Below, one piece after another: positions 3,950-34,176 of a stretch of DNA of 35,456 nt (positions are counted from its first letter, which is position 1; every line of letters starts with the position of its first letter). Source of the DNA: a virus. The translations under genes and the position numbers were made by a program. Location of the stretch: positions 1 to 35,456 of the IMG/VR virus record IMGVR_UViG_3300045974_000992; one strand, given 5' to 3'. A model generated the notes under the pieces. It was given only the letters and a program-made list of their open reading frames with translations. It did no database searches and had not been told where the DNA came from.

Positions 3950-4165
3950 ATGCAAACCATTGCTGAGATCGAGGCAGAGAGGGCGCGAGCCCGCATTCCG
4001 AAAGCCGAATTGTGCAAGGCGGCGGGCGTCAATGTCGCGACCTATCGGCGCTGCGAAATCGGCGAAACGTCGCCGACGGTCCGCACCCTGATCAAGCTCG
4101 CCGATGCATTGGCGATGCTCCGGGCCGATGCGCTGGCGCGCCTCCAGAAGGGCGGCGACCAATGA
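3950..4165 (+). CDS. Cro-like XRE-family HTH protein, 71 aa
   Basis: Short HTH_3-type protein, MQTIAEIEAERARARIPKAE then LCKAAGVNVATYRRCEIGET then SPTVRTLIKLADAL: five-helix repressor fold over residues about 3-55, with recognition helix VATYRRCEIG. It is transcribed divergently from the repressor gene, across the operator, exactly where Cro sits in lambdoid phages. A strong AGGAGG lies four bases before the ATG. Its TGA overlaps the ATG of the next gene (ATGA at 4162-4165), so it leads the rightward early operon. Role as the lytic-state repressor is inferred from position and fold. Confidence 0.8.
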   Translation: MQTIAEIEAERARARIPKAELCKAAGVNVATYRRCEIGETSPTVRTLIKLADALAMLRADALARLQKGGDQ

Positions 4166-4824
4166 CCGCCGTCCTCGATACGCAATCTTCCCGAGTTGAC
4201 GTTTTGGAAGCTGGCGATTCGCGAAAGAGGGTGCACCAAAACTTAAGTGCGGCGGGTGATTCGCAAAACAGGACCGGTTCTAAATTAAGCGCGGGCTTGG
4301 CCCTTAGAGAATTCGACATCGAGCGACGCCGCGCGGGCGTCTCGCAAGATGCGCTCGCGCAGGCGGCTGGAATAACGTCGGGATGGTATCGCAAGCTTCT
4401 GCGTCGCCCGGCGTCTGTCCGCCCCCTTCTGCTCCCAAAACTTCGCCGCGCCCTGCGCGCGCTCGAACGTCAAGCCGCCGCGCCGTCTCCCGTCGCCGCC
4501 CTCACCCTCGCGGCCTATGCCGGCTTCCTCGAAGTGACCGCGCGCCACTATGGCGTCACCCCGGATCAAGTGCGCGCGACCTCGCCGCAGCGCGGCGCCA
4601 CGGCCGACGCCCATTGGCGGAGCTGCGCCCATGCGCGTCAGGCCGCGATCTATCTCGTCAATGTCGGGCTCGGCGTCGAACAGGCGCGGATCGCCGCGCT
4701 GCTCGTGCTGACGCCGGCGGCCGTGTGCCTCGCCCTCAAGGATGTCGAGGACCGGCGCGACGACGAAGCCTTCGAGGCGATGATTTCCGCCGCGATGCGC
4801 GGCTTTACCGGAAGGGACGAGTGA
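4162..4824 (+). CDS. DNA-binding protein: HTH plus DnaA domain IV-like C-terminus, 220 aa
   Basis: Residues about 47-95 look like an XRE-type HTH (REFDIERRRAGVSQDALAQA, AGITSGWYRKLLRRP). Residues about 115-210 resemble DnaA domain IV: VTARHYGVTPDQVRATSPQR, then HARQAAIYLVNVGLGVEQAR and IAALLVLTPAAVCLALKDVE, matching the order 'va.yygv...dl.s..R', 'aRq.amyl....t..sl..Ig' and a final recognition helix; the DnaA signature GRDHTTV is replaced by LTPAAV. An N-terminal linker holds two copies of a 14-residue unit (AGDSRKRVHQNLSA and AGDSQNRTGSKLSA). Likely an early regulator or replication-initiation helper that binds DnaA-box-like sites. Overlaps neighbours by 4 and 1 bases. Confidence 0.6.
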   Translation: MTAVLDTQSSRVDVLEAGDSRKRVHQNLSAAGDSQNRTGSKLSAGLALREFDIERRRAGVSQDALAQAAGITSGWYRKLLRRPASVRPLLLPKLRRALRALERQAAAPSPVAALTLAAYAGFLEVTARHYGVTPDQVRATSPQRGATADAHWRSCAHARQAAIYLVNVGLGVEQARIAALLVLTPAAVCLALKDVEDRRDDEAFEAMISAAMRGFTGRDE

Positions 4825-5895: not shown

Positions 5896-6269
5896 AAAAG
5901 CCACTTTATGGCGAGCCCTGCAACGGTTGCGGCCACTGCTGCGACGATCAAATCTGTCCGCTGGCCGCCGCTGTTTTCTCCAATTGGCGCGCGCCATGCC
6001 CGGCGCTGGAGCCTAGCGGCGAGGCGCGCGTCTGTGGCCTCATCAACAATCCGACCAAATATGCGCCCGTGCGGATCGCTATTCAGGGGCGAAGCGAACT
6101 CAGCCTCGCCTCCGCCCACCTGTGCGGCGCTGGCGTCGGATGCGATGCGATCGCCGCTGGCGAGGTCGTCGATTTTGCGCGGCGGCAGTACTTCCAACGT
6201 CAGGCGCGGCGGGCGGCCCGGTCATCCGCAGTCCTGGCCGCCAAGCGCGTTTGGGGCCTTTCGCGATGA
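5886..6269 (+). CDS. YkgJ-type cysteine-cluster protein, 127 aa
   Basis: Contains GEPCNGCGHCCDDQICPL (residues 9-26) and further cysteines at CPALE and ARVCGL, the CxGCGxCC pattern of the YkgJ/UPF0153 family of predicted zinc- or iron-chelating proteins. The second half has no recognised motif and ends in a basic helix (RRQYFQRQARRAARSSA). Overlaps the methyltransferase by ten bases and the Toprim gene by four. Members of this family occur in many phages with no established role; metal delivery or redox sensing for nucleic-acid enzymes is possible but unproven. Confidence 0.7.
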   Translation: MPVKKPLYGEPCNGCGHCCDDQICPLAAAVFSNWRAPCPALEPSGEARVCGLINNPTKYAPVRIAIQGRSELSLASAHLCGAGVGCDAIAAGEVVDFARRQYFQRQARRAARSSAVLAAKRVWGLSR

Positions 6270-7342
6270 GCGCCGTCTCCGTCCGCGACCTGCGCGCCGG
6301 GCTGCAGGGGCTTTGCCCTGGCCTGCTGCACGAGCTCGTGCCCGGCATGCGGCGCGAGGGCACGGTGTGGGCGGCGCCCAACCCGACGCGCGCCAATGAC
6401 ACGCGCTCGTCGTTCAAGCTGTGGGGCAATGGCGCCTGGCGCGAATATGACGAGCCGGAGGACACCGGCAAGGGCGATATTTTGGGCCTCGTCGCCTATG
6501 TCGCCGGCTTCGCGCCGCGCTCGAGAGAGGGCCGGCGCTACGCCATCGACTGGGCCAAAAAGCGGCTTGGCGTCGACAATGGCAATCCCGAGGCAGTGCG
6601 GCGGATCAGGGTCGACGCGCAAAAGCGCCAGCGCGAGGCTGACAAGGAAGAGCGCGCGCGCGCGGCGCGAACCGCCTTGCGCATGACGGAAATCTGGCGC
6701 CAGGCGAAGCCTTTTTCCGGCCCGGAATTCGGCCTTGTGCGGCGCTATCTGCGCGGCCGGGGGATTGATTACGACGCCGTGCCGCACGCCTGCCCGGTGC
6801 TGAAGGTGCATCCGCATCTGCGCCATTGGGGCGGCGACAACTGGACCGGGCCGGCGATGATCGCCGCGGCCAAGAACGCCGAGGGCGTCACGACCGGCAT
6901 TCACGCCACCTTCCTGCATGAAGCGGGCGATGCCGTCACGAAGGCGCCGATCGCGTCGAGAAAGCTGATGCTCGGACCGATCAAGGGTTCCGTCGTCCAG
7001 CTCACCTATGGGCCGTCCGGCCTCTCGACGCGCGAGGCGCAGGCGCATGGCGTTTCGGGGCCGGTGGTGCTGTGCGAGGGCATCGAAACCGGCCTGGCGC
7101 TGGCGCTGAGCTTGCCCGAGGCGCGCGTCTGGGCCTGCCTGTCGCTCGGGAACATGGCCAATGCGCCGGTGTGGCTGCCCTGCGTCGCGTCGATTTACGT
7201 CGCGCTCGAAAACGACACCAAGCCGACGACGCTCAAGCAACGCGATTCGGTGCTGGAAACGCTGGAAAAGCACGGCAAGCCGCTCGCGACCATGTCGGCG
7301 CATCAAGGCAATGATTTCGCGGACCTGTTGTCGGCGGAGTGA
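6266..7342 (+). CDS. Toprim-domain primase-like protein, 358 aa
   Basis: Resembles the primase half of phage primase-helicases (DUF7146/Toprim_3-type). Residues 30-110 contain FKLWGNGAWREYDEPEDTGK and a DILGLVAYVAG helix, as in the N-terminal domain of that family; no Cys4 zinc finger is visible. Residues about 265-345 are Toprim: VVLCEGIETGLALALS (Glu271 and Glu274), SLGNMANAPVW, and VALENDTK (315-318), where the usual DxD is read as END. A central charged helix (112-140, DAQKRQREADKEERARAA) links the two. Would make RNA primers or act on ssDNA, working with the AAA+ helicase two genes downstream. Starts in an ATGA overlap. Confidence 0.75.
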   Translation: MSAVSVRDLRAGLQGLCPGLLHELVPGMRREGTVWAAPNPTRANDTRSSFKLWGNGAWREYDEPEDTGKGDILGLVAYVAGFAPRSREGRRYAIDWAKKRLGVDNGNPEAVRRIRVDAQKRQREADKEERARAARTALRMTEIWRQAKPFSGPEFGLVRRYLRGRGIDYDAVPHACPVLKVHPHLRHWGGDNWTGPAMIAAAKNAEGVTTGIHATFLHEAGDAVTKAPIASRKLMLGPIKGSVVQLTYGPSGLSTREAQAHGVSGPVVLCEGIETGLALALSLPEARVWACLSLGNMANAPVWLPCVASIYVALENDTKPTTLKQRDSVLETLEKHGKPLATMSAHQGNDFADLLSAE

Positions 7343-8084: not shown

Positions 8085-9929
8085 ATGGTGCAAAAAGGTG
8101 TGAAGGGCGTCCGCGCGGCATGGCTCGACGCCGAGGCGCGGCTGCTGGCCGAAACGACGGTCAACGAGCCGACCGCCGGCGATATCGATGGCTGGGGCTA
8201 TCCCGCCGGGCAATGGCCGGGCGCGCCAGCGTCGAAACTGCCGCCGGATTGCCCGGTGATCCCGCTCGGCATGGACGGAAAAATTACTTATGTGGTCGAT
8301 TCGCTCGGTCAGATGATCGACGTGGCCACGTCGGAATGGACGCATAACACCCTGATCTCGCTGTTCGCGGCCCGGCCGGAATATCTCTATCACCATTGGC
8401 CGCGCTTCAACGCCAAGACGCTGGCGATCAACGGTCTTGAAGTCAAAGAAGCGCATCAGGCGCTTATAAAAGCCGCCGCGATGCGGGGCATGTTCTCGCC
8501 GCGCGACAGTGTGCGCGGACGCGGATCGTGGACAACCTCGCGCAATGAGCTGATCTGGCATGCCGGCCCGGCGCTCTATCGGATCGAAGGCAAGCAGCTC
8601 AAGGCGGCCAAGCCGGGCGAGGTCGACGGGATGTTCTATCCTCAACGGCCGCCCATCACCATTCCCTGGCGCGAGCCGGTGCCGCCTAAAGATTCGCCCG
8701 CAGGACAATTGCTCCAGGACCTGGACTCGTGGTCGTGGGAGCGAAAGACGCTCGATCCCGTGCTCGTGCTCGGCGGCATCGCGGCGATGTTTCTCGGCGC
8801 CGCCCTGCCCTGGCGCCCGCACCTGTTTCTGAGCGGCGACAAGGGCGTCGGCAAGTCGACCTTGCAGAAAGTCATTCGCGCGGTGCTCGGGCCTTCGGTC
8901 TTCACGTCTGAAGATACGTCGCGCGCCGGCGTCTACCAGATCATCGGGCAGGATTGCCTGCCGGTGGCGATCGACGAACTGGAGGCCTCGGCGGTCTCGC
9001 GCAAGGCGAGCGAGATTGTCGACCTGGCGCGCGTCGCCAGCTCGGGCGGCACGATCTCGCGCGGCGGCGCCGATCATGAGGGCGTCCAATTCACGCTGCG
9101 AAATACGTTCCTTTTTTCGGCCATCAACCCGCCGCCCATGGAGCCGGCGGACCGATCGCGCATGGCGATTTTGAACATGGGAAAGCTGGAAAAGCAGCGC
9201 ATCGGCCGCGAACCGAAGATCGATGGGGACGTTTGCGGGCGGATGATCCTGCGCTCGCTCATGGACAGTTGGCCGAAGTTTCATGGCTGTTTCGAGGGCT
9301 GGAAGAAGACACTGTTTCTCGGCGGTCTCGATCGCCGCGCGCAGGATACGTATGGAACGCTTTTGGCGCTGGCCCATCTCCTGCTCGGCGATGAGGCCAT
9401 GGACGCGGCCGGCCTGCCGATGGTGGATGGCCAGTTTCTCGGCACGATGATCGCGCGCATGACTTCGACCGATCGACAGGATGCTTCGGAAAACTGGCGG
9501 CTGTGCCTTGAACATCTGCTCGGCTCGACCATCGAAGCGTGGAAGGGCGGCGAAAAGCCGACCATCGGCCGCGTGATGGAGGAATGGGACGCCAAAAACT
9601 GGAATCTCGACAGCGTCAATGAGCGCCTGGCGCTCGTCGGCATGCGCGGGCGCGAGGAGCTGGCCGATGGGAAGGACTGCGTCGACAGCGTGGGCGTCGC
9701 ACGGCGTCTGCTGTGCGTGCCGCTCTCGTCGGTCGGGCTGGCCAAGATTTTCCAGGGCTCGAAATGGGCTTCTGGCGTGTGGGGTTCGGCGCTCAAACAG
9801 GCGCCGCCGAATGTCGTGATCAAGGATCGCGGCAACGGTCAGAACGTCAAGATCAACCGCATGACGACGCGGTGCCTGTTTGTCGATCTGGCGGCTTTTG
9901 ACGCGCACATTGGCAAGGAGGAACAATAA
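8085..9929 (+). CDS. AAA+ replicative helicase-like protein, 614 aa
   Basis: Phage/plasmid-type helicase. Walker A is GDKGVGKST (251-259), Walker B is LPVAIDELE (292-300), and a sensor/arginine-finger segment is readable at [18 protein letters not shown] (343-360). The first 200 residues lack a recognised domain but show the regular structure seen ahead of such ATPases; the last 150 residues may hold a DNA-binding wing. It lies downstream of a Toprim primase-like gene, so primase and helicase functions are split over two genes, and no DNA polymerase is present. It likely unwinds phage DNA for host polymerase. The start has no obvious Shine-Dalgarno; a 78-base gap precedes it. Confidence 0.8.
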
Positions 9930-10744: not shown

Positions 10745-11369
10745 TTCTGGCCCGCTGCGCGTGCTCATCGGCTGCGAGTTTTCTGGCGTCGTTCGGCGCG
10801 AGTTCGCCGCGCTCGGTCATGACGCCTGGTCGTGCGATCTTCTTCCCGCCGAGGATGGATCGAACAAGCACATCGTCGGCGACGTCCGCGATCTGCTCGA
10901 CGATGGATGGGATTTACTCATGGTGGCGCATCCCCCCTGCACCCGCCTGTGCAATTCCGGCGTCCGTTGGCTCTCTCGGCCGCCGCCAGGCCGCGCGCTC
11001 GCGGACATGTGGGCCGATCTCGACGCGGCGGCCGACTTGTTCTCCGCATGCTGGAATGCGCCGATCGGGCGCGTCTGCATCGAAAATCCGGTGATGCACA
11101 AGCACGCGAAGGCGCGCATCCGCAACTATGAACCCTTCGCCCAATCGGTGCAGCCATGGCAGTTCGGTCATCCTGAAACCAAGCGGACATGCCTCTGGCT
11201 GCGCGGCCTGGGCCCGCTGACGCCAACGGAGGTTGTCGAGGGGCGTCAGGCGCGTGTGCATCGCATGCCCGATTCGCGCCATCGCCAGCGCGAGCGGTCG
11301 CGCTTCTTTCCGGGCATAGCACGCGCCATGGCGCTCCAATGGGGCGGCGTGGTCGAAATCGCGGCTTAG
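10731..11369 (+). CDS. Cytosine-methyltransferase-like phage protein, 212 aa
   Basis: Resembles a common phage family with a Rossmann-type core: PLRVLIGCEFSGVVRREFAA (8-27; motif I-like), WSCDLLPAEDG (33-43), then GDVRDLLDDGWDLLMVAHPP (50-69) with HPPC at 67-70 like the PPC of cytosine-5 methyltransferases, ENPVMHKHAK and QFGHPETKRTCLWLRGL. The conserved target-recognition half of true C5 methylases is absent, so activity is uncertain. Family members are often named DNA cytosine methyltransferase. Start chosen at the ATG inside the previous gene; the GTG at 10761 would start inside the first strand. Last gene of the early operon. Confidence 0.7.
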   Translation: MRRHSSGPLRVLIGCEFSGVVRREFAALGHDAWSCDLLPAEDGSNKHIVGDVRDLLDDGWDLLMVAHPPCTRLCNSGVRWLSRPPPGRALADMWADLDAAADLFSACWNAPIGRVCIENPVMHKHAKARIRNYEPFAQSVQPWQFGHPETKRTCLWLRGLGPLTPTEVVEGRQARVHRMPDSRHRQRERSRFFPGIARAMALQWGGVVEIAA

Positions 11370-11617
11370 GTTTCATTCCCCTGCCCGCTAGCGGCCTCGG
11401 CCGCCCCCCGCCCGGACCCGCTCGGCCCTGGCTATTTTCCCGCCATTGATCCCGGTCCCTTTTGGGCTCTGCGGCCATCCTTTCCCGCCGCCCGTTTGAG
11501 GTCAAGCGGTCGCGCGCGCGGCGCGTGCTCGGGCTTGAGCCAGATTGTGGCGCGCGCGCAGTTAATGCAGTTGGACCTGTGCGCAAGGTGATGGGTCCGG
11601 CGCTGGGTCGCGGGCGC

Positions 11618-11887
11618 AGTTATGGGCATAACCGCTCATTACCGGCGACATAACCGGATAAATTCAGCGAAATCAGAGGGCTAGGGCATGAGGTTATGCG
11701 GTAATGTCTCTCTCGCGCGCGCGTATATACACGTGCATGTGTGCACGTGCGGGCGCAGGCGCGCGCGCATACATGCGAAAACATAACTACATAACCTCAT
11801 TACCTTGGGGATAAGTATATGTTTAATATTATGCTTTGCAGTTACGCCAAAGTTATGAGCGGGCAGAATGAAGTTGTCGGCATAACC
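11618..11887. repeat. Iteron-like cluster: eight CATAACY 7-mers
   Basis: Copies on the plus strand at 11627, 11649, 11782, 11790 and 11881; on the minus strand (RGTTATG) at 11618, 11692 and 11851. The first two form an inverted pair with arms GTTATG/CATAAC around GG. An 11-bp inverted repeat, ATGAGGTTATG (11688-11698) and CATAACCTCAT (11790-11800), brackets the palindrome and the alternating tracts. CATTACC occurs at 11637, 11798 and, inverted, 11700. Confidence 0.7.
11714..11777. repeat. Alternating pyrimidine-purine tracts with central 20-bp palindrome
   Basis: Positions 11714-11751 alternate pyrimidine and purine without a break for 38 bases, and 11759-11777 do so again for 19. Within the first tract lies CACGTGCATGTGTGCACGTG (11730-11749), with perfect 8-bp arms and a 4-bp centre. 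Such sequence can form Z-DNA or a cruciform under supercoiling. The pattern is plain; a role is inferred. Confidence 0.6.
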
Positions 11888-11949
11888 GTCCATCTCGCCT
11901 GCGGCCTCGCCCTTTCGCGCAAGCAATTGAAAATAGGGGAGAAATAGCA

Positions 11950-12549
11950 ATGGCGGAGGGGAAGAAAGCGGCTGTCGCCGATTTGGCCGCCGATCTGGGG
12001 CCTGCGATGGCGCTCACTGGCGCGGCTTCGGAAAATTCTGGCGCCGATCTGTTCGCCGCGCTCGATGTCGAGGTTTCGCAGTTCGACGGCTCGGCGGTGG
12101 CGCCGCCGAAGCGGCGGGCGGGCAGGCCGCCGGGCTCGGTCAATCGTTCGACGCTCAAGCTGCAAGGCTATCTCCAGTCGCGCGGCTATCGCGATCCGGC
12201 GGAGTTTTTGGCGTCCATCGTCTCGGCCGATCCGCGCGAGCTGGCGGCGCGGCTGGCGGGCGTGAAGGACGTTCGGCTGATGACGTTCGACCAGGCGCTC
12301 GAAGTGCTCAAGCTGCAGCGAAACGCGGCGGATGCGCTCATGCCCTACTTCCACCAGAAAATGCCGATCGCGGTCCATCATCAGGGCGACGGCGCGGCGC
12401 GTCCGCTCATCATCATCGGCGACGGGCCGCGCGGCGGCGGCGCGCGGGATGGTTCGGCCATGTCGATTTACGATGTTGAGGATTTTCAACGGGTTGGCGA
12501 TGGAGGCGCGGAAGGGTCGCACGGAAATGGGTCTCATGACGATGCTTAA
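11950..12549 (+). CDS. Probable terminase small subunit, 199 aa
   Basis: Called by position and layout rather than by a clear motif: it lies upstream of the terminase large subunit and starts the late block. The N-terminal third is Ala/Asp-rich; residues about 54-66 are PKRRAGRPPGSVN, an AT-hook-like basic motif fit for DNA binding; residues 70-145 are helical (LQSRGYRDPAEFLASIVSAD, FDQALEVLKLQRNAADALMP); the C-terminus is Gly-rich and disordered. A Shine-Dalgarno (GGGGAG) precedes the ATG. Small terminases recognise the packaging site and recruit the large subunit. An alternative is a DNA-binding regulator of late genes. Confidence 0.6.
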   Translation: MAEGKKAAVADLAADLGPAMALTGAASENSGADLFAALDVEVSQFDGSAVAPPKRRAGRPPGSVNRSTLKLQGYLQSRGYRDPAEFLASIVSADPRELAARLAGVKDVRLMTFDQALEVLKLQRNAADALMPYFHQKMPIAVHHQGDGAARPLIIIGDGPRGGGARDGSAMSIYDVEDFQRVGDGGAEGSHGNGSHDDA

Positions 12550-15050: not shown

Positions 15051-15296
15051 ATGGGGCAATTCGTATCGTCCATGTTCGGCGGCGGCTCGTCGGCGGCGGC
15101 GGACGCGGCGGCCAAACAGGCCGCGCAAAGCCGTGAGCTCTCGTCCATCGCCTCGGCGCGGCAGGAACAGCTTGCACAGGACCAATCAACGAAAACGGCT
15201 GGAGACCTCGCCGCAGTCGGCAAGACGCCGCGCGGGCGTCGCCTGCTGCTGTCGAACGAATCTGGCGGCCTCGGCTCGACGCTGGGCACCGCCTGA
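15051..15296 (+). CDS. Small phage protein before the portal, 81 aa
   Basis: Begins MGQFVSSMFGGGSSAAADAA and is Ala/Ser/Gln-rich, with a helical middle (KQAAQSRELSSIASARQEQL) and a conserved-looking end KTPRGRRLLLSNESGGLGST. Small proteins with this Gly/Ser head and a TPRGRRLL-type tail are frequent directly upstream of the portal in T7-like phages. It may be a minor virion protein. The stop TGA overlaps the portal ATG by one base. Function not established. Confidence 0.7.
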   Translation: MGQFVSSMFGGGSSAAADAAAKQAAQSRELSSIASARQEQLAQDQSTKTAGDLAAVGKTPRGRRLLLSNESGGLGSTLGTA

Positions 15297-16993
15297 TGGC
15301 GCGCGCGGCCGCCGTCGATCTCGACTGTCATCGCCGCCGAGCTGACGCGGCCTGGCTGGATCGCTCCGTCTGGAGCGACATCTACCAGGACGCCTATCGC
15401 TTCACGACGCCCTATCGCCGGCCGGTCAACGGGCCGAACGGCTCTGACAAGGGCTCGAATCGCACCGATCATCTGTTCGATAATACCGGCGTGGTCTCGA
15501 CCTTTCGCGGCGCCGGTCAGATGCAACAGGATTTGTTTCCGCCCGGCCAGGAATTTTTCCGGCTGAAGCCGGGGCCGGTTACCAAGCTCGTCGCCGGCAA
15601 GCGCGGCATGGGCGATAACGGCGGGCCGACGCTCGAGGAGGCCGGCGAGGGCGCCAATCCCGGCGCCGACGATCAGGCGCCGCGCGATTTCGCATGGTTC
15701 GAACGCCAGCTCGACCAGGTGACGGCGCAAATTCAGCCGTTCTTTTTGTCCGGCGAATGGGACAACGCGGTCTCCGAACTGTGCCTCGATCTCTACCTCG
15801 GCACGGGCGTGATGCTCATTCTCGAGGGCGACCGCGACAATCCCATCCGCTTCGTCTGCCTGCCGATCGACGAAGTCGCGCTCGAGCCCGGCCCTTATGG
15901 CGACGTGGCCGCGCTGTTCTGGAAGACCAAAATGACGCGCCGCGCCATCAAGGCGGCGTTTCCGAAGGGCGTGTTTCCAAAGCAATTCGACGACGATTGC
16001 GAGAAAAACGCCGACGAAGAGGTCGAGCTGCGGCAGGATTTCACGCGCACGCCGAAAGGCTGGCGACTCATCGTCACCGTCGAAAAATCCGAGACGCCGG
16101 TCACGACGCAGGATTACCGCACGCAACCGTTCGTCGCGGCGCGCTATTTCCGCGTGCCTGGCGAGACCATGGGGCGCGGCCCGGCGCTGCTCGCGCTGCC
16201 CTCGATCAAGACGCTGAACAAGGTCATGGAGCTGACCTTGAAGGCGGCGGCGATCCAGATGCTGGGCATCTGGGGCTATCGGCCCGGCGGCACGTTCAAC
16301 CCGGACCAGGCGAGGATCGCGCCCGGCGCCTGGTGGCCGATGCAGGCGACCGGCGGCGTGATGGGGCCGGACGTGACGCGGCTCGACACGGCGGCCGGCC
16401 GCATGGACGTCGCGAATATCGTGCTGCAGGAGCTGCGGACGCAGGTCCAGGCCGCCCTTCACGATGAGCATTTGCCGGACGGCGGCGCGACGCCCAAGAG
16501 CGCCACCGAAATCATGGCCCGCATGGCGCGCGTCAAGCAAAACTACGTCGGCGCGTTCGGGCGCATGATCCATGAGGTCATCCCGGTCGTCGTGCGGCGG
16601 GCGATCGAAGTGCTCTACAAGCGCGGGCTTTTGACGGTCGATATCAAGATCGATCAATTGCTGGTCGCCATCGACGTGATGAGCCCGCTGGCGCAGGCGC
16701 TCAAGGCCGACGCGCACAAGACGACAGTCGAGGCGATGCAGATGGTGGCGGCGCTCGAGGGGCCGCAAGGCGTCGCGCGACGGTTCAAGCTCGACGAAAT
16801 CATTCCCGAGATGATCAAGGATCTGGGGGTGAATTCCGAATACGTGCGCACGGTGAAAGAGCTGGCGGAATTCGACCAGGCCGCGTCGCAGCAGCAGCAG
16901 GCCGCGACCGTGATGCAGGCCGCCCTGAATAAGCCGAAGGACTTCAAGGAGGCGCTTTCGCCGCCGGAAGATCAGCAGCAAGCCGCTGCTTAA
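15296..16993 (+). CDS. Portal (head-tail connector) protein, T7 gp8-like, 565 aa
   Basis: Forms the dodecameric portal at one capsid vertex and the DNA channel. The family is recognised from the order: WSDIYQDAYRFTTPYRRPVN near the N-terminus, DHLFDNTGVVSTFRGAGQMQ, a stem-region helix, FVAARYFRVPGETMGRGPAL, LNKVMELTLKAAAIQMLGIW, and GATPKSATEIMARMARVKQN (a T7 gp8-like 'ATE...R' helix). A Glu/Gln-rich tail ends QQQQAATVMQA...DQQQAAA. It contains an inserted Gly/Asp-rich loop (about 102-125, GKRGMGDNGGPTLEEAGEGA). Length is close to that of T7 gp8 (536). Confidence 0.92.
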   Translation: MARAAAVDLDCHRRRADAAWLDRSVWSDIYQDAYRFTTPYRRPVNGPNGSDKGSNRTDHLFDNTGVVSTFRGAGQMQQDLFPPGQEFFRLKPGPVTKLVAGKRGMGDNGGPTLEEAGEGANPGADDQAPRDFAWFERQLDQVTAQIQPFFLSGEWDNAVSELCLDLYLGTGVMLILEGDRDNPIRFVCLPIDEVALEPGPYGDVAALFWKTKMTRRAIKAAFPKGVFPKQFDDDCEKNADEEVELRQDFTRTPKGWRLIVTVEKSETPVTTQDYRTQPFVAARYFRVPGETMGRGPALLALPSIKTLNKVMELTLKAAAIQMLGIWGYRPGGTFNPDQARIAPGAWWPMQATGGVMGPDVTRLDTAAGRMDVANIVLQELRTQVQAALHDEHLPDGGATPKSATEIMARMARVKQNYVGAFGRMIHEVIPVVVRRAIEVLYKRGLLTVDIKIDQLLVAIDVMSPLAQALKADAHKTTVEAMQMVAALEGPQGVARRFKLDEIIPEMIKDLGVNSEYVRTVKELAEFDQAASQQQQAATVMQAALNKPKDFKEALSPPEDQQQAAA

Positions 16994-32872: not shown

Positions 32873-34176
32873 TCCGTTTCACGACAACAGCCGTGACGGC
32901 TGCGGCCCTCATCGCCGCCGTTCCGTCTCTTTCTCACGCGCAAACCAGCGTGCAATTCGGCCTTCAGACCGGATCGAACCCGCGCCAGCTCGGCGTCTAT
33001 GACCAGGCGCATACCTTCGTCCCCATGGGCGCTCTCGACAGCACGGGGCATGGTTTCAGCATTCCCGCGAAATCGACCGCGAAAACGGCCGCCTATACCG
33101 TGGCGTCGGGCGACGTGAACACGCAACTGACGCTCGGCGGATCGGCTTTTTACACGGTCACGTTCAATGCCCCGGCGGGCTACGCCATCGGCAATTATTT
33201 CCTCGCGAACACCGATACGCGCGCAAAGAAAATCGTGCTTTCGGGCGGCGCGACATACACGCTTTGGCCTGGTCAGAGCGACATTATTTCCAACCTGACC
33301 GGCGCATGGGTCGCGTTCAACGGCCCGCGCCGTTACGTCAAGAATGCGCCGACCTGCTATGTCGACAAGGCGGCCGGGCAGACGATCGGAAACACCGATG
33401 GCCTCGCCGCCGGCGCCGGCGCTTTCACGACGTTTCAGGGCTGTTACCAGAATGCCTTGGCCAATTTTGACACGGCGGGCGGGCCTTTCAACGTCCAATT
33501 GACTGCGGGCCAAACCTATACCGCCTTGGACGATTTTGCCTTCAACGGCCTGGTGCCGGGCTCATACGGAACTACCGTCTATGGCAATGGCGCGTCGATC
33601 ATTGTCGGCGGGTCAACCACGCCAGTTGGCCAGGGCGCTGTGTCCTATATTGGCGCCAGCGGCCAGGTCTCTATCGGCAATCTCTCCACCGTGAGTTGCA
33701 CAGCGCCGAATTGCTCCGATTTTTCCATTTCCTATCCCGGCGAGCTCAATGTCTACGCCCCGGTGTCTTACGGGCAGGCGACGCAGGCGCATAACCAGGC
33801 CTCCGGACCCGGCTCCGTGCTTTACATCACGGGCTTCAATTACGCCCTGACGCCGACGGCGAACACGATTGCGGGCAATGCGCCCTATCACAATCAGGCC
33901 GTACAGGGCGGTTTTCTTATCGACTATAGCTCAAGTAATGTTCTCAGCGCCAATGTAACGTTCAGCGCCCAGTTCGCACTTGCTTCCGTGGGCGGCATTC
34001 TGCAAGGCCCCGGAGGCGCGGCCTATCCGATTACACTCGGAAGTTTCACCGTTTCCGGGCAGCGTTGGTACTCAAACTTGAATGGCGTGATCAATAATAC
34101 GTCGGGATGTCCCGCCAATTACTGGCCGGGATCGATCAGCGGCGGTCCGTCCGCGACTGGCGGACAGTGCAACTGA
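32869..34176 (+). CDS. Secreted-looking beta-rich protein of the tail region, 435 aa
   Basis: Has an apparent Sec signal peptide: basic start MIRFTTTA, hydrophobic VTAAALIAAVPSLS, cleavage after HAQ (about residue 25). The mature part is Gly/Ala/Ser/Thr-rich, with many short strands (SGDVNTQLTLGGSAFYTVTF, FNVQLTAGQTYTALDDFAFN), suggestive of a beta-helix or tailspike. Six cysteines lie mainly in two pairs. It is translationally coupled to the tail fibre (ATGA) and followed by lysozyme. A signal peptide is unexpected for a virion protein assembled in the cytoplasm, so it may be an envelope protein made by lysogens or a tail tip with an unusual N-terminus. Function unknown. Confidence 0.65.
   Translation: MIRFTTTAVTAAALIAAVPSLSHAQTSVQFGLQTGSNPRQLGVYDQAHTFVPMGALDSTGHGFSIPAKSTAKTAAYTVASGDVNTQLTLGGSAFYTVTFNAPAGYAIGNYFLANTDTRAKKIVLSGGATYTLWPGQSDIISNLTGAWVAFNGPRRYVKNAPTCYVDKAAGQTIGNTDGLAAGAGAFTTFQGCYQNALANFDTAGGPFNVQLTAGQTYTALDDFAFNGLVPGSYGTTVYGNGASIIVGGSTTPVGQGAVSYIGASGQVSIGNLSTVSCTAPNCSDFSISYPGELNVYAPVSYGQATQAHNQASGPGSVLYITGFNYALTPTANTIAGNAPYHNQAVQGGFLIDYSSSNVLSANVTFSAQFALASVGGILQGPGGAAYPITLGSFTVSGQRWYSNLNGVINNTSGCPANYWPGSISGGPSATGGQCN

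Follow-up and report, generated by a model that had tools for sequence, protein, structure and literature searches.

A twelve-site iteron array as the probable replication origin of a phage encoding a SaPI-Rep-like helicase

Introduction

Why does one 7-bp word recur so densely between the early and the late genes of a phage? The DNA analyzed here, a linear IMG/VR virus record of 35,456 nucleotides (the window), contains such a cluster at 11618-11887. A sequence-only reading of it had counted eight copies of CATAACY and had offered two explanations, the phage origin and the site of a DnaA-like protein. We examined the array in the window, its counterparts in related phages, and the proteins that may read it.

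Results and Discussion

Architecture of the array

All eight CATAACY copies were found at the positions reported by the sequence-only reading, with both strands represented. The count was correct for the exact 7-mer but too low for the array, since near-matches raise it to 12 sites (Table 1). The same reading had regarded equal density elsewhere in the phage as an objection; a single further CATAACY was found, at 33790, and 1.5-1.8 copies are expected in the whole record. The biggest cluster per 277 nt contained eight copies, compared with two in 300 shuffled windows, the same maximum being obtained with an order-1 as with an order-3 Markov background. The gene-free block described around the array is real (11370-11949, 580 nt), bounded by a methyltransferase-like open reading frame that ends at 11369 and by the terS-like frame that begins at 11950. 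Likewise, the AT-rich patch is the lowest-GC 24-, 40- and 60-mer in the whole window, and the right-hand interval of the array corresponds to the most AT-rich 24- and 40-mer. The 11-bp inverted repeat is present, with 10 rather than 11 matching bases.

Table 1 Features of the array and of the genes discussed in the text. Coordinates are those of the window; signs after coordinates in the last column denote the strand of single sites.
Feature	Coordinates	Strand	Description
Toprim-type DNA primase	6266..7342	+	Toprim_3 5.6e-12; genetically linked to helicase
Helicase partner	8085..9929	+	614 aa; predicted AAA+ of SaPI-Rep/Cch type; C-terminal domain ~466-614
CATAACY sites			Exact 7-mer: 11618-, 11627+, 11649+, 11692-, 11782+, 11790+, 11851-, 11881+
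Near-match sites CATTACC			11637+, 11700-, 11798+; complete the 12-site array
Near-match site CGTAACT			11840-; degenerate, two mismatches
Distal left cluster	11618..11655		AGTTATG (-) 11618-11624, CATAACC (+) 11627-11633, CATTACC (+) 11637-11643, CATAACC (+) 11649-11655
Left linker	11656..11691		36 nt, 47% GC; start-to-start gap 43 to next cluster
Proximal left pair	11692..11706	-	CATAACC 11692-11698, CATTACC 11700-11706; spacing 8
Dyad centre	11707..11781		75 nt between proximal clusters
Proximal right triple	11782..11804	+	CATAACT 11782-11788, CATAACC 11790-11796, CATTACC 11798-11804; spacing 8, 8
AT-rich stretch	11805..11839		Presumed unwinding element; start-to-start gap 42 across
Distal right cluster	11840..11887		CGTAACT (-) 11840-11846, CATAACT (-) 11851-11857, CATAACC (+) 11881-11887
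Small terminase, terS-like	11950..12549	+	Adjoins array; not its likely reader

From left to right, the strands of the sites and the start-to-start distances between them (in bp) are - 9 + 10 + 12 + 43 - 8 - 82 + 8 + 8 + 42 - 11 - 30 +. The 12 sites can thus be written as a dyad: (-)(+++), 43 bp, (--), an alternating purine-pyrimidine core, (+++), 42 bp, and (--)(+). Two facing iteron sets surround the AT-rich region. The dyad centre contains the longest strictly alternating purine-pyrimidine tract in the window (38 nt at 11714) and also the second longest (19 nt), and outside the centre such tracts do not exceed 13 nt. The window's own dyad pairing gave a p value of 0.28 when the 11840 site, which has two mismatches, was left out of the count, and GC skew along the window showed no turn at the array.

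As a separate observation, the left linker contains an AAATCA / ATCAANNAAATCA element that recurs in the left linkers of many relatives' arrays. It does not fit the IHF consensus.

Gene neighbourhood

Upstream of the array are genes for a Toprim primase, an AAA+ helicase, a GapR-like protein and a methyltransferase-like protein; terS, terL and a podovirus-type portal gene follow downstream. The array lies 1.7 kb past the helicase gene with three genes between, and terS is adjacent. Among the neighbours named by the sequence-only reading, the primase, the helicase-like protein and the GapR-like protein (GapR PF10073, 6.8e-32) were borne out. The DnaA-like label proved weak, because the HTH protein in question (window 4156-4824) matched Bac_DnaA_C with an E value of 0.039, under the cut-off. 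When 53 array-bearing loci were compared, the primase was linked to the array in 52, homologs of the HTH protein were found in 47, and GapR-like proteins in only 24.

Two minor features of the neighbourhood were also observed. The element CAATTGAAAATAGGGGA (11926-11942), which immediately precedes terS, is unchanged among five close relatives, and farther relatives have GAATAAANAAATNGGG-like or AATTAAATATCAGGGGTTTA-like elements at its position; it is possibly a ribosome-binding or late-promoter element. In one relative, the slot between the GapR-like gene and the array (L011:1407-3339) encodes a DUF5131 protein and a partner matching the PADLOC candidate defence families PDC-M30/M41. This slot, occupied by the methyltransferase-like gene in the window, looks like a cargo site.

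Arrays in related phages

A lack of the repeat at the same place in related phages was the other objection named by the sequence-only reading. In the relatives that we checked, the array is kept there, but it is built from a different word. Viral contigs with TerL 89% identical have it at the same place despite differing left-side genes, in a contig whose TerL is 69% identical the layout is preserved with TGTAACC as the word, and other loci use CCTAACC and AAGTAACC. A search of 297 genomes of Hyphomicrobiales gave 17 with TerL relatives, and wherever a Hyphomicrobiales locus encoded all four proteins (primase, helicase, TerS and TerL), it also had an array written in its own word. When viral contigs were scanned by TerL alignment, the same four relatives were returned and no more, and blastn of the region against phages gave matches only around the methyltransferase-like gene.

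A helicase-based scan yielded 46 viral loci, and an array was found in all 39 that were informative, 0.2-3.3 kb downstream of the helicase gene. The array scores in these 39 ranged from 7.6 to 28 against a shuffled-control maximum of 7.9; in most of the five that scored near this maximum, words were mixed or exact copies were fewer. Multiple short iterons past the helicase gene are the usual arrangement, the exception being L120. Its array (about 15290-15560, helicase oriented +) lies about 5 kb from a fused primase-helicase gene, the farthest distance seen. The fused gene also occurs at L121, L123 and L124, and all four loci have an array of the same kind; no terminase was identified for them in the stretch read. 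At L116, no array appeared up to the contig end.

The geometry of the arrays is shared across words. Spacing is 10-12 bp in distal clusters and 8-9 bp in proximal clusters, and the distal-to-proximal gap is 41-45 bp on both sides in most arrays. At the positions of the distal left cluster, which has spacings of 9, 10 and 12 in the window, relatives have their own word. A CG-rich alternating spacer occupies the place of the dyad centre in nearly all relatives, and the length of the array centre is variable (about 41-103 bp). Dyad pairing averaged 64% of sites compared with 38% under random placement and reached p<=0.05 in 19 of 29 arrays; the strand of the words in L115, L087, L122 and L120 was chosen from the geometry, so that the dyad evidence there is not independent.

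Cultured phages with distant relatives of the fused primase-helicase also have arrays beside that gene. The clearest cultured case is Bdellovibrio phage phi1422, in which eleven GGTAACA words lie directly behind the primase gene (L138:9390-9720). A TGTTACA array was also seen beside the primase-helicase gene of Acinetobacter phage Acjo_20 (L137:3070-3560); both are phages of other groups of bacteria. The repeat table in the phi1422 genome paper does not include phi1422, and our literature search found no iteron origin described for these phages.

The array follows the helicase rather than the terminase

Since the array was near terS in all of the first relatives, we tested whether it is a packaging initiation site, pac- or cosB-like and bound by the small terminase, as are the hexamer clusters of P1 pac. 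This was the leading alternative at an early stage. In most relatives the array is just upstream of terS while the genes on its other side vary, and iteron clusters around a core recall P1 pac. However, the array and the packaging genes are separated in two prophages. L117 has a lambda-type portal and a phrog_57 terS, and L118 has an HK97-type terL and portal, yet both retain the primase, and in both the array lies just behind a helicase gene of the same family. Neither has TerS or TerL of the window type, and the gene after the array is an unrelated phrog_9306 gene; clean decoupling together with identified foreign packaging genes was seen at these two loci only. Furthermore, no helicase match was obtained in the stretches read of the TerL relatives BcepC6B, Ss1, Pmp11, RHph_TM3_14A, Mx8 and Rollin, and none of the six showed such an array. 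The array thus does not stay with a cognate terminase, nor does it co-vary with TerS as described below. The packaging site was dropped on the decoupled loci and the larger co-variation test, and we consider it hardly probable.

Co-variation of the word with the helicase

In 40 loci, 26 words were found, and all copies in an array change word together. Word distance was correlated with the distances of the helicase (0.447), its C-terminal domain (0.471), TerL (0.391) and TerS (0.204). The word-helicase correlation remained when TerL was controlled for (r 0.236, p 0.0005), whereas that of word and TerL given the helicase was 0.026 (p 0.36); similarly, the C-terminal domain retained a correlation given the N-terminal part (0.237, p 0.001) and the reverse was 0.063 (p 0.19), with the caveat that the sequences in these Mantel tests are related, so that the contrasts are informative in direction but the p values are optimistic. 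The signal of the C-terminal domain persisted after control for TerL or TerS, and the correlation of word and TerS given the helicase was negative. In an earlier Mantel set of 21 loci, TerL and the helicase performed equally well and were not separated. As judged from these sequence comparisons, the word varies with the helicase and most of all with its C-terminal domain; with the helicase accounted for, it does not track TerS, TerL, the primase or the DnaA-like protein. Word and helicase could nonetheless share a history without contact.

These results also bear on a regulatory role. Lying between early and late genes, the array might be an operator for a late operon that starts at terS, bound by a phage regulator such as the DnaA-like HTH protein, whose gene is present in the great majority of array loci. 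Against this, no homolog was found in 6 of the 53 loci (some of which have a short upstream stretch), and the partial r of the word with this protein given the helicase was -0.14. In L117 and L118, moreover, the gene that follows is not terS, and an operator would not usually comprise twelve sites spread over 270 bp, arranged as a dyad and accompanied by an AT-rich stretch. Such a function therefore seems very unlikely. The proposal of the sequence-only reading that the region is the site of the DnaA-like protein is not supported, on the same two points, incomplete occurrence and missing residual co-variation; GapR-like proteins were rejected as binders because they are not in all loci.

Alternatively, an origin could be read by the primase or by a host initiator instead of the helicase. 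The close linkage of primase and array would agree with the former, and DnaA is the usual host initiator. However, the primase adds nothing to the prediction of the word beyond the helicase (partial -0.02), and a host protein would not explain the differing words in phages of related hosts. We regard either reader as extremely improbable.

In L164, L166, L167, L169, L172 and L173, GGTTACC- and GGTTGGC-type words were observed together at fixed positions upstream of terS. These arrays have possibly been caught in mid-switch.

Fold of the helicase and its C-terminal domain

The helicase was modelled with a mean pLDDT of 66.6, and the C-terminal domain alone with a pLDDT of 91. The best Foldseek match of the helicase model was SCCmec Cch (5dgk, E 1.4e-7), and 7ola matched with an E value of 1.2e-5. 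The VIA Z values were 14.3 for 5dgk, 13.7 for SaPI5 Rep (7ola) and 12.6 for SaPIbov1 Rep (8tch). The model thus agrees with an AAA+ initiator helicase of the SaPI Rep/Cch fold; because MCM AAA+ chains score equally high (Z 12-14.7) and the matches run mainly through the AAA+ core, the superfamily is assigned more surely than the subfamily. By sequence, the helicase matched only P-loop fragments in the PDB, and Pfam gave only weak AAA/DUF927 matches for its relatives. The first three matches of the C-terminal domain model were the pCW3 relaxosome accessory protein (two entries, one bound to oriT DNA; Z 5.5 and 5.3) and the C-terminal domain of SaPIbov1 Rep (Z 4.4), all of them weak. Foldseek with this domain alone gave nothing significant (E>1).

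A further protein was noticed at L116:6577-7563. It contains an AntA-like antirepressor domain, labelled by eye, apparently fused to a near-copy of the neighbouring helicase's C-terminal domain, and the two proteins have the common ending RRINGRATRQVAIPARQHVVDPWPG. It is possibly a stand-alone iteron binder or a copy-control protein.

A candidate replication origin

The association of the array with the helicase family, its decoupling from the packaging genes in L117 and L118, the co-variation of word and helicase, the predicted fold, the analogy to SaPI/PICI origins and the dyad pairing together suggest that 11618-11887 is very probably the phage replication origin. It would be an iteron origin for the SaPI-Rep-like helicase, whose C-terminal domain is the candidate reader. 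Of the two explanations given by the sequence-only reading, the phage origin is accordingly the better supported, as the array goes with the primase-helicase pair and combines a dyad and AT-rich layout with a helicase resembling SaPI Rep/Cch. Several observations are on the other side: the GC skew, the 1.7-kb distance combined with terS adjacency, L120, L116, the relatedness of the sequences in the Mantel tests, the earlier 21-locus set, the decoupled loci numbering only two, and the weakness of the C-terminal domain matches.

We propose the following mechanism. The 12 copies of the 7-bp iteron would form two inverted half-origins around the alternating purine-pyrimidine core. In each half, the distal cluster with 10-12 bp spacing would face the proximal cluster with 8 bp spacing across ~42-43 bp, roughly four turns. 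Helicase subunits would bind the clusters, presumably through the C-terminal domain, and one ring would assemble per half. The AT-rich DNA would melt, the two rings would then move apart, and the linked Toprim primase would prime both strands.

If the origin reading is right, an origin and an initiator are assigned for a large group of alphaproteobacterial prophages and for some cultured phages (e.g. phi1422). About 26 naturally matched combinations of a helicase reading domain and a DNA word would then exist in one geometric frame. Such pairs would make the recognition rules and the concerted change of word at 12 sites directly testable, and the fixed dyad with facing half-sites suggests head-to-head placing of two ring helicases without a separate loader. 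A broader proposal, which we offer only tentatively, is that these arrays may represent an undescribed, widespread class of phage origin. In this class, a fixed scaffold (inverted 10-12 / 42-44 / 8 bp halves and an alternating core) would place two helicase rings head to head, the iteron word would change freely along with the helicase C-terminal domain, and two-word arrays would be in mid-switch. The group would then offer a natural collection in which each reader is matched to its word.

Comparison with known systems

Through its C-terminal domain, SaPI Rep recognizes iterons that lie downstream of its gene, and the C-terminal domain of Cch2 binds repeats downstream of its gene (PMC7581432). 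In PICI origins, two iteron sets flank an AT-rich region (PMC6092414). The rep-ori systems of SaPIs and PICIs (SaPIbov1 Rep, SaPI5 Pri-Rep and EcCICFT073) resemble the present phage in combining a primase with an initiator helicase of the same AAA+ fold, in having short iterons past the helicase gene, and in the iteron sets that flank an AT-rich region (PMC7581432, PMC6092414). However, PICIs are satellites without virion genes, whereas the phage here is complete with its own capsid genes, the window carrying terS, terL and the podovirus-type portal gene. Its primase is Toprim and theirs AEP, and two inverted iteron-AT-iteron units are arranged around the alternating core. In addition, the array here can sit kilobases downstream, beside terS, and 26 words occur in one phage group. 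In the case of SCCmec, Cch is the best Foldseek match of the helicase, but the putative origin has three short iterons only, no dyad double array and another primase system. What is new relative to SaPI, PICI and Cch is the occurrence in complete phages, the different primase, the doubled inverted layout and the extensive word switching.

Other phage systems are comparable in part. In phage P4, the alpha protein acts on ori and crr, a phage-encoded primase and helicase thus working on short iterons as proposed here; the geometry differs, as P4 requires two separate sites and one fused protein. In the origin of phage lambda, a phage initiator binds iterons that lie beside an AT-rich region. These iterons, however, are inside the O gene and the initiator loads the host DnaB, whereas the array here is in the 580-nt intergenic block and the initiator would itself be a helicase. 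In phage P1, clusters of a short word flank a core at the pac site, close to the terminase gene; the window array differs in going with the helicase rather than the terminase. As a separate observation, six ACTGCGA-type words lie within the 5' portion of terS in Pasteurella phage Pmp11 (L131:7344-7420), and this cluster may be that phage's own pac site.
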